NCBI RefSeq assembly: GCF_024054035.1
Contig: NZ_JAMXQU010000002.1
Location: 310,001-374,000, forward strand
Length of the DNA: 64,000 nucleotides
Origin: Asaia lannensis NBRC 102526
GTDB taxonomy: Bacteria; Pseudomonadota; Alphaproteobacteria; Acetobacterales; Acetobacteraceae
Direction of reading: 5' to 3'
Position 1 is the stretch's first letter, and the number at the start of each line of letters is the position of its first letter. This document shows positions 54,330 to 58,806 of the stretch, piece by piece. The translations under genes and the position numbers were made by a program. Below the pieces are notes generated by a model, which was not told the origin of the DNA, ran no database searches, and saw only the letters and a list, made by a program, of their open reading frames with translations.

Positions 54330-54803
54330 ATGACGCAAAAGCCCGCCCCTCCCCGTCTTGTCGCCGACCCGGAATCCGGACTTTTCGAAGCCATGGAAGC
54401 CGCGCCACGCTACGAAGCCGTGACGCGCGACATCACGGTGTCGGTACGCACCTTCTGGCTTGAGGACCAGTCCCAGCCAGAAGACCATCATTTTGCATGG
54501 GCCTATCATATCAGGATCGAGAATGGTGGCAGCGAAACCGTGCAGCTTCTCAGCCGGTTCTGGGAAGTCACCGACGGTCGCGGCAAGACGGATCATATCC
54601 ACGGTGAGGGCGTGATCGGCGAGCAGCCGATCCTCGTTGCGCAGGAAGTCTATGAATATACCTCAGGCGTGGCCCTACCCACGCCGTGCGGCTTCATGCG
54701 TGGCACGTATCATATGATCGTTCCAGCCACCGGCGAGCGTTTCGAGGTGACGATCCCGGCGTTCAGTCTCGATAGCCCTCATCGCCTCGGCCTTGTTCAC
54801 TGA
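54330..54803 (+). CDS. apaG: ApaG domain protein
   Basis: This 157-residue protein has the single immunoglobulin-like ApaG domain: YEAVTRDITVSVRTFWLEDQSQPEDHHFAWAYHIRIENGG, LLSRFWEVTDGRGKTDHIHGEGVIGEQPIL and TPCGFMRGTYHMI. An N-terminal extension of about 25 residues precedes the domain compared with E. coli ApaG (125 residues). ApaG was linked to Co/Mg efflux and has a fibronectin/Ig fold; the biochemical role is unclear. Its 3' end overlaps the convergent diguanylate cyclase by 41 bases. Confidence 0.92.
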   Translation: MTQKPAPPRLVADPESGLFEAMEAAPRYEAVTRDITVSVRTFWLEDQSQPEDHHFAWAYHIRIENGGSETVQLLSRFWEVTDGRGKTDHIHGEGVIGEQPILVAQEVYEYTSGVALPTPCGFMRGTYHMIVPATGERFEVTIPAFSLDSPHRLGLVH

Positions 54804-57735
54804 TCACGATACGTCCGCGCCCTTCGAGCTTGGCACGGTATAGCGCCTGATCGGCCCGCTCCAGCGCCTCGATCCAGATTTCACGGGTTGGAATCGTACC
54901 CGTCAGGGTCTGGGCGATACCGGCACTGCATCCTACGGTCAGAGCACCGACCTTGGTCTCGAACGGCACGGTCGTGAGAGCGGAAAGCAGTAAATCGATA
55001 CGTATGCAGGCCTGTGCAAAATCGCCCTGCACGACGATCAGGAACTCCTCGCCGCCATAACGACCGATCAACTCGTCCTGGGTCTTGTCCCGCAGGAGGC
55101 GGCTGCCGATTTCGGCGAGTATCTCATCGCCGATCGTATGGCCGAACGTGTCGTTGATCGATTTGAAATAATCGACGTCGAACAAGGCGATGGTGAGCGC
55201 ACGATGCTGGCCCTCGAATCCGGGCTGGAGCATTTTATCGAGAAGGCGCAGCACGCTTGCTTCCACCGTGCGCCGGTTCATCAGACGGGTCAGACCGTCC
55301 TGGCGTGCCTGCTGCTCAAGAGCGTTCTGCGCGGCACGCATCTCCTCAGTGCGCTCCAGAACGAGACTTTCGAGGCGCTTTTGTCTTTTGAGCAGATAGC
55401 TGAAGCGCATCCGGTTGAAGATGTAAGGCAGCATGACCACTGCAACGACGTAGAATACGATGAGCGGCCATGCCATCCACCAAGGTCTACGCATACGAAT
55501 TTCAAGCACGATAGGCTTCGATATGATGTTCCGGTTGTCGTTGATTGCCTGAACGACAAGCTTTGTGTGGCCGGGCGGAACGAAGTTGTAGCGTATCTCA
55601 CCGGTCGTCGTTTTTACCCAGTCCTGATCCACCCCCTCAAGGCGGTATCTGAAATAGGTCGATGGCGCCAGGTCGGTATTGAGCGTGCCCAGCGTAACCG
55701 TCAACGGATCGCGCGTGAAGGGAACTGCGCGCTCAGGTAACAATGCATCGCCAAGCTTGACCCGAATAAAAACAGGATTGAGGTCCGGCTTTTCGAAGAA
55801 GTGTTCAGGGTGGACAAGATGGGCAACACCTCTGGTCGTCGTGATCCAGATCGACCCGTCCGGGTCCTGCACCAAGCCCTTCTGGTTGATGTTCGCAGAA
55901 ACCAGACCGTCGTCTTTGGTCAGGCGTATCCACTCATGACCGTCAAACACAGCCAGACCGTTTTCAGTACCGACCCAGAGATGATGATTGCGATCGTAAA
56001 GAAGGCTGAAAATGATCTGAGAGCCTGTCAGCGCCGGGCCGACAGGCATGACACGGTCGATTTCCGCGTCTTTGAGCCTGACATGAACAAGCCCAACGGG
56101 CGCGCGGACACCGCCGACCCAGAGATCGTCATGCGATGAGAAAACCATCGCGGCTGGAGAGAATTTCCCCCCATTCGGCCAGTGATCGAGTGTTTTCTTC
56201 CAGTGCCCGTCTTTTTCGCGCCGATACAGGGCATCGCCGAGAATTGCCCATGGCGTTCCGTCATCACGCAAAGCGATCGTTGTGGCCGGGCTGGTCAAAA
56301 GATTGCCGCGATCGTCCTCGACCGTCGATGGCGGGTCCGAAGAAGCCGGATCGTACTGGAAAAGACCGTAGTCGGAAGCAATCCACAACCGGTCCATCTG
56401 CACTGCCTCGGCGATATCCATCACGCGTCCGACTGTCAGTTTCCGGTCACAGAAGAATTTCCCGTCATGATCGACGCAATGCAGCAGGAAACGGTCATCC
56501 ACAGGGGCCCAGTAGCCTGAATGACGATCTCTGATGCCGAAAAAGAAATTACCGTCTTTCAGGCGCTCGCCGATCTCGTTTTTATCGAGAGGGAAGAGCC
56601 CCTGATCCGTGAAAAGCAGCTCCCTGTCCGGTCCCACCCCCTCTCCTTCACGGGGCAGAACAGACCAGACCGAGCGGATGCTCTGGGGTTCGATGTTTTC
56701 CCACACACCCCACCCGACCAGCTTGTCGAGTTCGACTGCGTCCTGCACGGTCCAGAACTGCCTGTTGCGATCGACAAAGGCGAAATACATATCCTGCTCG
56801 CGTCCTAGAGCATGGTTAGGATAGCTCCAGTAGTGACCGTTGAATGAGCGCAGGTGGCTGCCATCGAAAAATGCCGCTGCATCCGAGGTTGCCACCACAA
56901 ACGTGGGATATGTCTCAAGCGACGACTGATCGTATTCCCGCTCCAGCAGCAGCCCCGCCCAACCGCCCCTGATGACAGGAGCGATAAGAAACCGGTTTTC
57001 AATCGCGAAAAACTGCCGGTCGATATTCCCTGCCGGAGGTTCGGGAATAGAGACGATATGGGACAGGCGAAGCGCTGCCCTTCCTTCGATATCGCGCAGC
57101 ACGGTCTCGTAGCGCCTGTGGAAATAAACACGGTCGCCCATCTGGAACAGACGCATCGCCCGACCGCCCACCCGACTGTCGCGATGACAGACGAGCCTCA
57201 GCTCATCGACGATCATGCATGAATGAATACCTGCTTCATCCGTAACGATAACCGTCGATCCGTCGAGATAGACTTTCGCAATTCTGCCAATTCCCGCAGT
57301 GACGAGCATGTGGAAGGAGAGAGAGATGGGCGATCGTCTCGCACTGGGCGCCTCCGAAGACAGAAGCAAGGCACCATGACGCAGTGCCAGAATACGGCCA
57401 TCCGGTAGAAAACGAATCATGTTCACATGACCGGTCTGCCCAGGTACGGAAGGGAGGGAGACCTCGTGGAAGTTCTGTCCGGAAAAGAAATAGAGAGATC
57501 GTTGGGTGAGGACGTAGAGATAACCCTGCCTGTCCTGAGCCATGCCGAATATGTAGGAGCTATCGATGCCGTCACGTTGCGAAAATGTTCGCATCGGCAG
57601 GTCCAGATCACGCGCTGATGCGCTGTGACAAAGCGCAAGGGTAACGATCACTATAGCGAGTACAGGGCGCAGGTCGAGAAATGCCCGAACATGGTTGAGG
57701 CAACACAGCAGAAGAAAGTGCTTCTTCCCTGGCAA
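54763..57735 (-). CDS. membrane sensor diguanylate cyclase with propeller and Y_Y_Y domains
   Basis: This 990-residue protein has an N-terminal signal/TM (VLAIVIVTLALCHSASA), a large periplasmic region of two-component-regulator propeller repeats (LFTDQGLFPLDKNEIGE, GTENGLAVFDGHEWIRLTKDDGLVSANI, DPDGSIWITTTRGVAHL), a Y_Y_Y domain (YFRYRLEGVDQDWVKTTTGEIRYNFVPPGHTKL), a TM helix at about 745-768, a short coiled coil (LESLVLERTEEMRAAQNALEQQA) and a GGDEF domain with GGEEF at 894-898, so cyclase activity is likely. The inhibitory RxxD site upstream is replaced by TQDE, so product inhibition may be lost. The ligand is unknown; nearby sugar uptake hints at a carbohydrate. Confidence 0.9.
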   Translation of the reverse strand: MPGKKHFLLLCCLNHVRAFLDLRPVLAIVIVTLALCHSASARDLDLPMRTFSQRDGIDSSYIFGMAQDRQGYLYVLTQRSLYFFSGQNFHEVSLPSVPGQTGHVNMIRFLPDGRILALRHGALLLSSEAPSARRSPISLSFHMLVTAGIGRIAKVYLDGSTVIVTDEAGIHSCMIVDELRLVCHRDSRVGGRAMRLFQMGDRVYFHRRYETVLRDIEGRAALRLSHIVSIPEPPAGNIDRQFFAIENRFLIAPVIRGGWAGLLLEREYDQSSLETYPTFVVATSDAAAFFDGSHLRSFNGHYWSYPNHALGREQDMYFAFVDRNRQFWTVQDAVELDKLVGWGVWENIEPQSIRSVWSVLPREGEGVGPDRELLFTDQGLFPLDKNEIGERLKDGNFFFGIRDRHSGYWAPVDDRFLLHCVDHDGKFFCDRKLTVGRVMDIAEAVQMDRLWIASDYGLFQYDPASSDPPSTVEDDRGNLLTSPATTIALRDDGTPWAILGDALYRREKDGHWKKTLDHWPNGGKFSPAAMVFSSHDDLWVGGVRAPVGLVHVRLKDAEIDRVMPVGPALTGSQIIFSLLYDRNHHLWVGTENGLAVFDGHEWIRLTKDDGLVSANINQKGLVQDPDGSIWITTTRGVAHLVHPEHFFEKPDLNPVFIRVKLGDALLPERAVPFTRDPLTVTLGTLNTDLAPSTYFRYRLEGVDQDWVKTTTGEIRYNFVPPGHTKLVVQAINDNRNIISKPIVLEIRMRRPWWMAWPLIVFYVVAVVMLPYIFNRMRFSYLLKRQKRLESLVLERTEEMRAAQNALEQQARQDGLTRLMNRRTVEASVLRLLDKMLQPGFEGQHRALTIALFDVDYFKSINDTFGHTIGDEILAEIGSRLLRDKTQDELIGRYGGEEFLIVVQGDFAQACIRIDLLLSALTTVPFETKVGALTVGCSAGIAQTLTGTIPTREIWIEALERADQALYRAKLEGRGRIVISEQGRGDEGYRD

Positions 57736-57856
57736 ACCTGAAATGACGTCATCTCTCTTCAGAATCTTGCCCTCAGGACCGTGGCACTATTGCCTTCAGC
57801 TATTCTAGAATACCCCAAGGGCATGGTCGTTAAAAATACGCAATAGCAGAACGATT

Positions 57857-57895: not shown

Positions 57896-58333
57896 TCAGC
57901 CGAAAGAGGGCGAGAAGGGGGCGAGAGCAACATGCTGGGCTCTGTTTACGACACAATCGCCATCCATTGCACAGGGATCCCAGGACTGGCCCGGCGGGGG
58001 ACGAGGACCGGCAAGAGCGATGCTATCCACATTCTTCACGACACAGTCGCCATCCATCGCGCAGGGATCCCAGGACTGGCCCGGCGGGGGACGAGGACCG
58101 GCAAGGGCGATGCTATCCACATTCTTCACGACACAATCGCCATCCATCGCGCAGGGATCCCAGGACTGGCCCGGCGGGGGACGAGGACCGGCAAGGGCAA
58201 TCGACGTCTGATCGGAAGGGATAGTTACCGACGTCGCCTGCGAAGAAGCGAAAGCTGTACCGGTAACCGTTGCGATCGAGCCAGCGATCATCATGATCGA
58301 AAAAGTATTGGATACTAAATTGCGAATAGACAT
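57896..58333 (-). CDS. secreted protein with three 30-residue Cys-containing tandem repeats
   Basis: This 145-residue protein has a signal peptide (NTFSIMMIAGSIATVTGTAFA, cleavage after Ala-Phe-Ala) and then three nearly identical 30-residue units (44-73, 74-103, 104-133). Each unit has SIALAGPRPPPGQSWDPC followed by AMDGDCVV: a triproline turn, one Trp and two Cys separated by five residues. KNVD links the units and the last ends in a hydrophobic tail. Six cysteines in a secreted protein suggest one disulphide loop per unit. No known domain is recognised. A hairpin covers the ribosome binding site. It could be a structural envelope protein, a binding protein or a multi-core peptide precursor; I cannot decide. 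Confidence 0.75.
   Translation of the reverse strand: MSIRNLVSNTFSIMMIAGSIATVTGTAFASSQATSVTIPSDQTSIALAGPRPPPGQSWDPCAMDGDCVVKNVDSIALAGPRPPPGQSWDPCAMDGDCVVKNVDSIALAGPRPPPGQSWDPCAMDGDCVVNRAQHVALAPFSPSFG
57935..58204. repeat. three tandem 90-bp coding repeats
   Basis: The block CAGGGATCCCAGGACTGGCC and its surroundings recur with a 90-base period (around 57972, 58062 and 58152), in phase with the 30-residue protein units. The copies differ at only a few bases, mostly in the first copy as written on the plus strand, which implies recent duplication or gene conversion. Confidence 0.95.
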
Positions 58334-58340
58334 GGTGACA

Positions 58341-58381
58341 ATCCATTTACAGACGCAAGCGTTATTGCTTGCGAAATGGAT
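58341..58381 (-). promoter_or_regulatory. leader hairpin over the ribosome binding site of the repeat gene
   Basis: On the minus strand ATCCATTT (58381-58374) pairs with AAATGGAT (58348-58341), with an inner stem CGCAAGC/GCTTGCG and a 6-base loop. The 3' arm contains the TGGA that lies 9 bases before the ATG at 58333 and is the only Shine-Dalgarno-like sequence there. Folding would hide it, so translation may be controlled by temperature, a protein or an RNA. Confidence 0.6.
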
Positions 58382-58806
58382 GCACCAATAAATCCCATAA
58401 GTCTCGACTAGATTGAGAATGATATAATGGAGAAGCTATAATACTTAATCATAAATAGTAATTATTTTATTTAATCAACGCTGAATATTTATCGATTATT
58501 CATATATGAGATACTTCTATAGAAGTTTTACTATTTGTAATATCATAATTATATTATTATCAGACCCTGTTACTTGCATAATTTCACGATAAATTAACCT
58601 GCTATTTTGTCCCGAAACGCCACACGACGGACCGACAGGTCGTCTCCCTACGCTTGGCGTTGACCCAATATATGGATCACAACGAATTTGGTTTGAATTA
58701 ACGTGACAAACGCTTAAAGATCACACGCACTTTGGGATTTCTCGCGTGATACCGATGATCCCTCGGCAGGCCCTGCGCCAGGTTTTCTCGACTAAGGTCT
58801 CTTCAT
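58382..58806. other. AT-rich intergenic tract with a perfect 14-bp palindrome
   Basis: The roughly 425 bases between the repeat gene and the sugar transporter are far richer in A/T than anything else in the window, above all 58400-58600. ACTTCTATAGAAGT at 58513-58526 is a perfect palindrome. No gene is visible on either strand. The tract should carry promoters for the repeat gene (minus) and the transporter (plus). Confidence 0.6.

Follow-up and report, generated by a model that had tools for sequence, protein, structure and literature searches.

A secreted tandem-repeat peptide gene adjoins a propeller-sensor diguanylate cyclase in Asaia and relatives: a candidate peptide signal and receptor pair

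The window, a 64 000-nucleotide stretch of the Asaia lannensis genome, contains at 57896-58333 on the minus strand an ORF with an ATG start that encodes a secreted repeat-peptide precursor of 145 aa. By eye, the hydrophobic N-terminal stretch, which ends AFA-S, resembles a Sec signal peptide, as the initial annotation had proposed; this putative signal peptide spans residues 1-29 (..TAFA-SSQ, with an AxA motif; 58247-58333, minus strand), and the same layout is seen across the nine Asaia orthologues. Three tandem units follow on the same strand: unit 1 (SIALAGPRPPPGQSWDPCAMDGDCVVKNVD; 58115-58204), unit 2 with identical amino acids (58025-58114) and unit 3 (SIALAGPRPPPGQSWDPCAMDGDCVV; 57947-58024). 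Each carries the core GPRPPPGQSWDPCAMDGDCVV, with five residues between its two Cys. TRF places the array at 57948-58198 with a period of 90 bp, 2.8 copies, 96% matches and a score of 474, compared with 50 for the next best array within the window and a maximum of 82 across 400 kb of the same genome. The coordinates, the near-identical unit and the Cys spacing first given for this gene are correct. The unit length of 30 residues applies to units 1 and 2; unit 3 diverges past CVV, with NRAQ... in place of the KNVD... linker and a differing C-terminal tail.

No Pfam or NCBIfam family matched the precursor above cut-off. Weaker matches (Ezh2-like CXC and others) lie in the repeats or in low-complexity stretches and were rejected. 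The claim that no described family has this unit holds for Pfam, NCBIfam and the open PMC literature searched. When species genomes of bacteria and archaea (84,980 in all) were scanned with a degenerate DNA pattern encoding GPRPxxGxxxDPCxxxGxC, six contigs matched, all from Asaia (A. platycodi, A. siamensis, Asaia sp. W19, A. krungthepensis, A. bogorensis GD-01 and A. prunellae). No viral contig contained the Asaia unit, and a viral origin was rejected. Weak matches to the unit across the family (E 4e-4 to 0.1) were put down to chance, as they fall in G+C-rich frames with internal stops and partial coverage.

The peptide gene occupies the same genomic place in all nine Asaia genomes searched. 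It has 3 (in the window), 4, 5 and 6 units in four genomes and a single unit in the other five; the unit search and copy-number comparison suggested as a check in the initial annotation thus return a unit confined to Asaia. As five species manage with one unit, the unit, and not its repetition, is the functional, conserved part. Ten of its residues (G P R P G D P C G C) are invariant among the nine genomes; conservation is poor in the spacer and the signal peptide. The units are near-identical inside a genome and different between species; that is, they have been homogenised by concerted evolution. When units were compared within each of 12 arrays, the changes were synonymous only in 51 codon columns and altered the amino acid in 33, where a ratio of ~25:75 would be expected for random changes, and the repeats are thus under purifying selection. 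Because the frame is kept in all nine Asaia genomes and the changes between units are mostly synonymous, 57896-58333 is coding. Non-repeated homologues of known function had been named as evidence that would count against the repeat-peptide reading; non-repeated homologues do exist, and none has a known function.

The key context, absent from the initial annotation, is the adjacent gene. In all nine Asaia genomes the peptide gene immediately precedes, with the same orientation, a gene for a diguanylate cyclase (DGC), our proposed receptor (990 aa in the window; 54763-57735, minus strand). Its Reg_prop repeats, Y_Y_Y domain and membrane helix follow one another in the order of an HTCS-type sensor. 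The GGDEF catalytic domain (54814-55305, minus strand; Pfam PF00990, E 2.6e-28) carries the GG(D/E)EF signature of DGCs in the form GGEEF. From ~residue 46 to 690 (55666-57600, minus strand) we predict a periplasmic beta-propeller sensor, on the basis of similarity to the Bacteroides HTCS sensors BT4663/BT3049 by both sequence (profile E 1.2e-50) and fold (Foldseek E 3.8e-22; PDB 4a2l, 4a2m, 3v9f); the structural model is of moderate quality (mean pLDDT 64.5) with low TM-scores, and of the two lines of evidence the sequence match carries more weight. In one Asaia genome (G202, L065 5173-8027) a break at residue 479/480 leaves the DGC in two frames, with the neighbouring peptide gene intact; this reflects either a mutation or a draft error.

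The sensor is hypervariable within Asaia, with a mean identity of 52% that falls to 23-36% in residues 91-270, whereas the GGDEF domain of the same protein reaches 75%, and CysMet, MFS, ispDF and apaG reach 85-91%. The peptide unit stands at 57%. Peptide and sensor therefore diverge fast relative to most of their neighbours, although the neighbouring ATP12 gene is also fast (68%). A mirror-tree test of co-evolution within Asaia was non-specific: unit divergence correlates with that of the sensor at r=0.61 and with that of the unrelated neighbour ATP12 at r=0.64.

The gene order in all nine Asaia genomes is CysMet - apaG - DGC(<-) - peptide(<-) - sugar porter(->) - ispDF - ATP12. Just 5' of the peptide start codon is a leader hairpin, CGCAAGC-AATAA-CGCTTGCG with an outer stem (58340-58384, minus strand). 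Similar forms of its inner part, CAAGC-AATAA-GCTTG, are found in 9/9 Asaia leaders, where the CAAGC/GCTTG-type stem shows weak covariation; the outer stem may mask the ribosome-binding site of the peptide gene. Rfam returned no leader or riboswitch match to this leader at E<=1. We found no consensus terminator on the coding strand between peptide gene and DGC, which makes their co-transcription plausible. Between the peptide stop and the DGC start there is a motif, T(4-5)AACGAC (window 57827-57837, minus strand), in 9/9 Asaia genomes, with one variant (TTTCTAACGAC), set in intergenic DNA that otherwise differs among the nine. The motif may serve the DGC as a promoter or as a regulator site.

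Short secreted ORFs recur just upstream of homologous propeller DGCs across the Acetobacteraceae, often with tandem units unrelated to that of Asaia: LRQWPAPNATR (12 times), DPNIFHHWP (7), DPSSRHEWP (7), IRVGNEHRNF (3) and IRHPSET (4). The precursors range from 44 to 206 aa, and single-unit forms extend ~40 aa past the signal peptide. Two further genera keep the whole Asaia gene order, one with a 76-aa secreted ORF with two Cys (G008; ..PYNPGEAPTGNPHACTWGFDPRCGSIV) and one with three units of AIRVGNEHRNFRIGTAPVTAPVQLA that have no Cys (G022). Other genomic contexts hold 12 copies of VASLRQWPAPNATR (G025) or 4 units of the IRHPSET type (G009). The remaining arrays comprise IRHPGGT-type units on the Kozakia baliensis plasmid pKB16680_2, 7-8 copies of LDPAISHHWAS (G181), 7 of EIDPNIFHHWPTT (G056), 4 of DPKIFHHWP plus 3 of ALHHWP on Lichenicola cladoniae plasmids (G256), 4 of VAYRHGWPQEEIK (G037), 7 of DPSSRHEWPT (G224), 3 of IFHHWPH (G049), 2 of VVHHF (G128) and at least 7 of INAVSNASVINPNTLKDRPT in an ORF whose start lies beyond the contig end (G071). 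Single-unit short secreted ORFs lie upstream in G001 and G132 and at the second copies of G025 and G181. Most of these equivalent peptides lack Cys, and the disulphide-looped protein considered in the initial annotation does not extend to them as a general rule. Pfam matches of the repeats from other genera (actin-like 7A, stannin) cover 12-22 residues, barely pass the cut-off and were judged spurious. A shared cleavage-site consensus was likewise rejected; [VIL]A precedes many cores (IALA-GPRP, VAEI-DPNIFHHW, VA-SLRQWP), a weak pattern in alanine-rich sequence.

On a tree of the DGCs, related receptors go with related peptides. The FHHWP, SHHWA and RHEWP cores group together, RHGWP and LRQWP belong to sister receptors, the IRHP, ILHP and GVPH types form another group, and the two-Cys peptides are those of Asaia and its sister G008. 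This congruence is compatible with cognate pairing and would be equally expected from co-inheritance of linked genes. Two Lichenicola cladoniae plasmids (L121, L122) carry peptide-DGC pairs that are 97% identical, and so the pair can duplicate together. Insertion sequences interrupt the DGC on the Kozakia baliensis plasmid (L123 1940-6611), where the peptide gene beside it is intact, and also the second DGC copy of G022 (L088 6564-10271). The RefSeq annotation of Lichenicola cladoniae does not recognise the pair: the DGC (WP_172443539.1) is a 'ligand-binding sensor domain-containing diguanylate cyclase' and the upstream peptide gene (WP_171835754.1) a 'hypothetical protein'.

As a control on the linkage, we compared propeller DGCs with other GGDEF genes in nine genomes (G000, G009, G022, G025, G037, G056, G181, G224 and G256), counting upstream arrays with a TRF score >=150. 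Such an array was present at 10/14 propeller DGCs (one IS-broken copy of G022 being left out of the 14) and at 0/40 other GGDEF genes, where the highest score was 104. Nine of the ten arrays are independent, the two Lichenicola plasmid copies being near-identical; the hypergeometric p, calculated by hand, is ~4e-8, or ~2e-7 with one of those copies removed. In 16 long loci and 400 kb of the window's own genome, only seven arrays scored >400, and each of these lies in the ORF that immediately precedes a propeller DGC. The pair recurs in different contexts, plasmids included (L061/L086/L087, L089, L090, L091, L092, L123, L121/L122 and L125), which have no gene in common besides the DGC, except for transposases and, in L092 and L123, peptide genes that are related to each other. 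Neither in Asaia nor in the other contexts compared is a dedicated exporter or protease gene fixed beside the pair.

The pairing has limits. Nine propeller DGC loci of one genus (g43; L097, L099-L103, L105, L107 and L114) have no upstream peptide ORF, through either loss or a peptide encoded elsewhere, and among the loci examined several divergent DGC homologues also lack one; the sensor can therefore work without a linked peptide. On one divergent branch (L116, L118), a large secreted S53-type (sedolisin) peptidase-like protein lies directly upstream in place of the small peptide (L116 423-2339). Propeller DGCs outside the Acetobacteraceae (G588, Niveispirillum) have no such peptide, and the phylum sample gave a strong DGC match outside the family in one genome only. 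From these negatives, the pairing belongs to a single family, and within it to some members only.

We favour, with a probability of roughly 0.55, a model in which peptides cut from the precursor serve as cognate ligand for the adjacent propeller DGC and thereby set c-di-GMP and attached or motile behaviour. The precursor would be exported by Sec, and the repeated core, GPRPPxGxxxDPCxxxGxCV in Asaia, would be freed in the form of short peptides, either within the periplasm or beyond the cell. Those that leave the cell could act between cells. Binding to the variable propeller face of the DGC would alter c-di-GMP synthesis, by activation or inhibition, and the c-di-GMP level would then determine whether cells are attached or motile. 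Repeat number would represent ligand gene dosage, with more ligand molecules per precursor, and the rapid joint divergence of peptide and sensor would give lineage-specific recognition. The idea of a precursor cut into equal peptides was the better of the two put forward in the initial annotation: the copy number of 1-6, the single-unit orthologues, the homogenisation within species and the unrelated repeats in the same slot of relatives all agree with it, whilst the cutting itself is what we infer from them. A point against a peptide ligand is that the sensor's best known relatives have fragments of polysaccharides, and not peptides, as ligands.

The same pairing might arise if the precursor stayed uncut, as a repetitive accessory protein of the periplasm that binds the propeller as a regulator or inhibitor, with one site per repeat and no cell-to-cell signalling. 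Sec export alone would place it in the compartment of the sensor, the lack of a fixed exporter or protease gene fits, and single-unit forms are short enough to act whole. However, a unit number that varies from 1 to 12 and a sequence replaced wholesale between genera would more usually be expected of peptides that are released than of a partner with a defined structure, and we consider this reading unlikely, albeit the strongest of the rivals. Less likely again is a protein of the surface or matrix, or one otherwise in contact with the environment, such as a polysaccharide binder or an adhesin; the DGC would either sense the state of this protein indirectly or simply share its regulation. HTCS-type propellers classically sense polysaccharides, matrix is under c-di-GMP control and tandem repeats are frequent among surface proteins; against this, the proteins are small, down to the single-unit forms, and match no credible anchoring or carbohydrate-binding Pfam family. 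We give little credence to antimicrobial peptides of the bacteriocin type, linked to the DGC through co-regulation only. Fast diversification, restriction to genera and the two Cys of each Asaia unit are bacteriocin-like, but the peptide gene has no fixed neighbour for immunity, transport or modification, the DGC is the sole partner kept across unrelated contexts, and its sensor is itself hypervariable. Finally, it is scarcely credible that the repeats expanded by chance or selfishly in a small exported ORF that the cell could do without. The commonness of tandem duplication and the poorly conserved spacer and signal peptide could be cited for this; against it stand the empty control set, the synonymous bias between units, and a gene kept in every Asaia genome with ten invariant unit residues.

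The favoured peptide-ligand model has parallels in known systems. The Gram-positive peptide pheromone systems of the agr/AIP and ComC-ComD type likewise have a small exported precursor gene adjoining a membrane-sensor gene, and in them peptide and sensor domain diverge quickly together, in a lineage-specific way. The Asaia system differs in its Gram-negative host, in a c-di-GMP output in place of a phosphorelay, in having no dedicated processing or export gene that we could find, and in a precursor that is often tandem-repeated and whose ligand role is putative. Repeat-type pheromone and hormone precursors of eukaryotes, such as yeast alpha-factor, also have a signal peptide followed by near-identical copies of a short peptide, the number varying by species; here the system is bacterial, has no Kex2-like dibasic sites between units and has a DGC, not a GPCR, as proposed receptor. 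The DGC sensor is homologous to those of HTCS in its Reg_prop blades and Y_Y_Y domain, but its output is GGDEF and not the histidine kinase/response regulator chain that defines HTCS. Known HTCS ligands are polysaccharide fragments, and we know of no linked peptide gene for these sensors. Multi-core RiPP precursors also hold repeated core peptides inside one precursor (PMC13003496, PMC12048977). The Asaia gene has a Sec-type signal peptide instead of a RiPP leader, and its conserved flanks (CysMet, apaG, MFS, ispDF and ATP12) include no modification enzyme.

The open PMC literature (subscription papers and preprints lying outside it) yielded no account of a propeller DGC that has a secreted repeat peptide as its partner. 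The principle of action would resemble that of peptide pheromones, whilst we can name no known system with such parts and such direct coupling to c-di-GMP. Comparative sequence analysis thus suggests an undescribed pair of peptide signal and receptor in Gram-negative bacteria. More tentatively, and at slightly short of even odds, it may stand for an undescribed Gram-negative class of signalling, in which secreted, lineage-specific tandem-repeat peptides are private ligands of one-component propeller DGCs and a pheromone directly controls c-di-GMP. To our knowledge, gene-encoded peptide signals are rare among Gram-negative bacteria, and the extracytoplasmic ligands of most sensor DGCs are unknown. 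Here, a linked gene for the candidate ligand means that synthetic peptides offer a direct test of what the DGC senses. Asaia, a symbiont of mosquitoes, has been studied for paratransgenesis (PMC8156966). The hosts of the pair are acetic acid bacteria and their relatives, among them cellulose makers and associates of insects, plants and lichens, in which attachment and biofilm formation matter.
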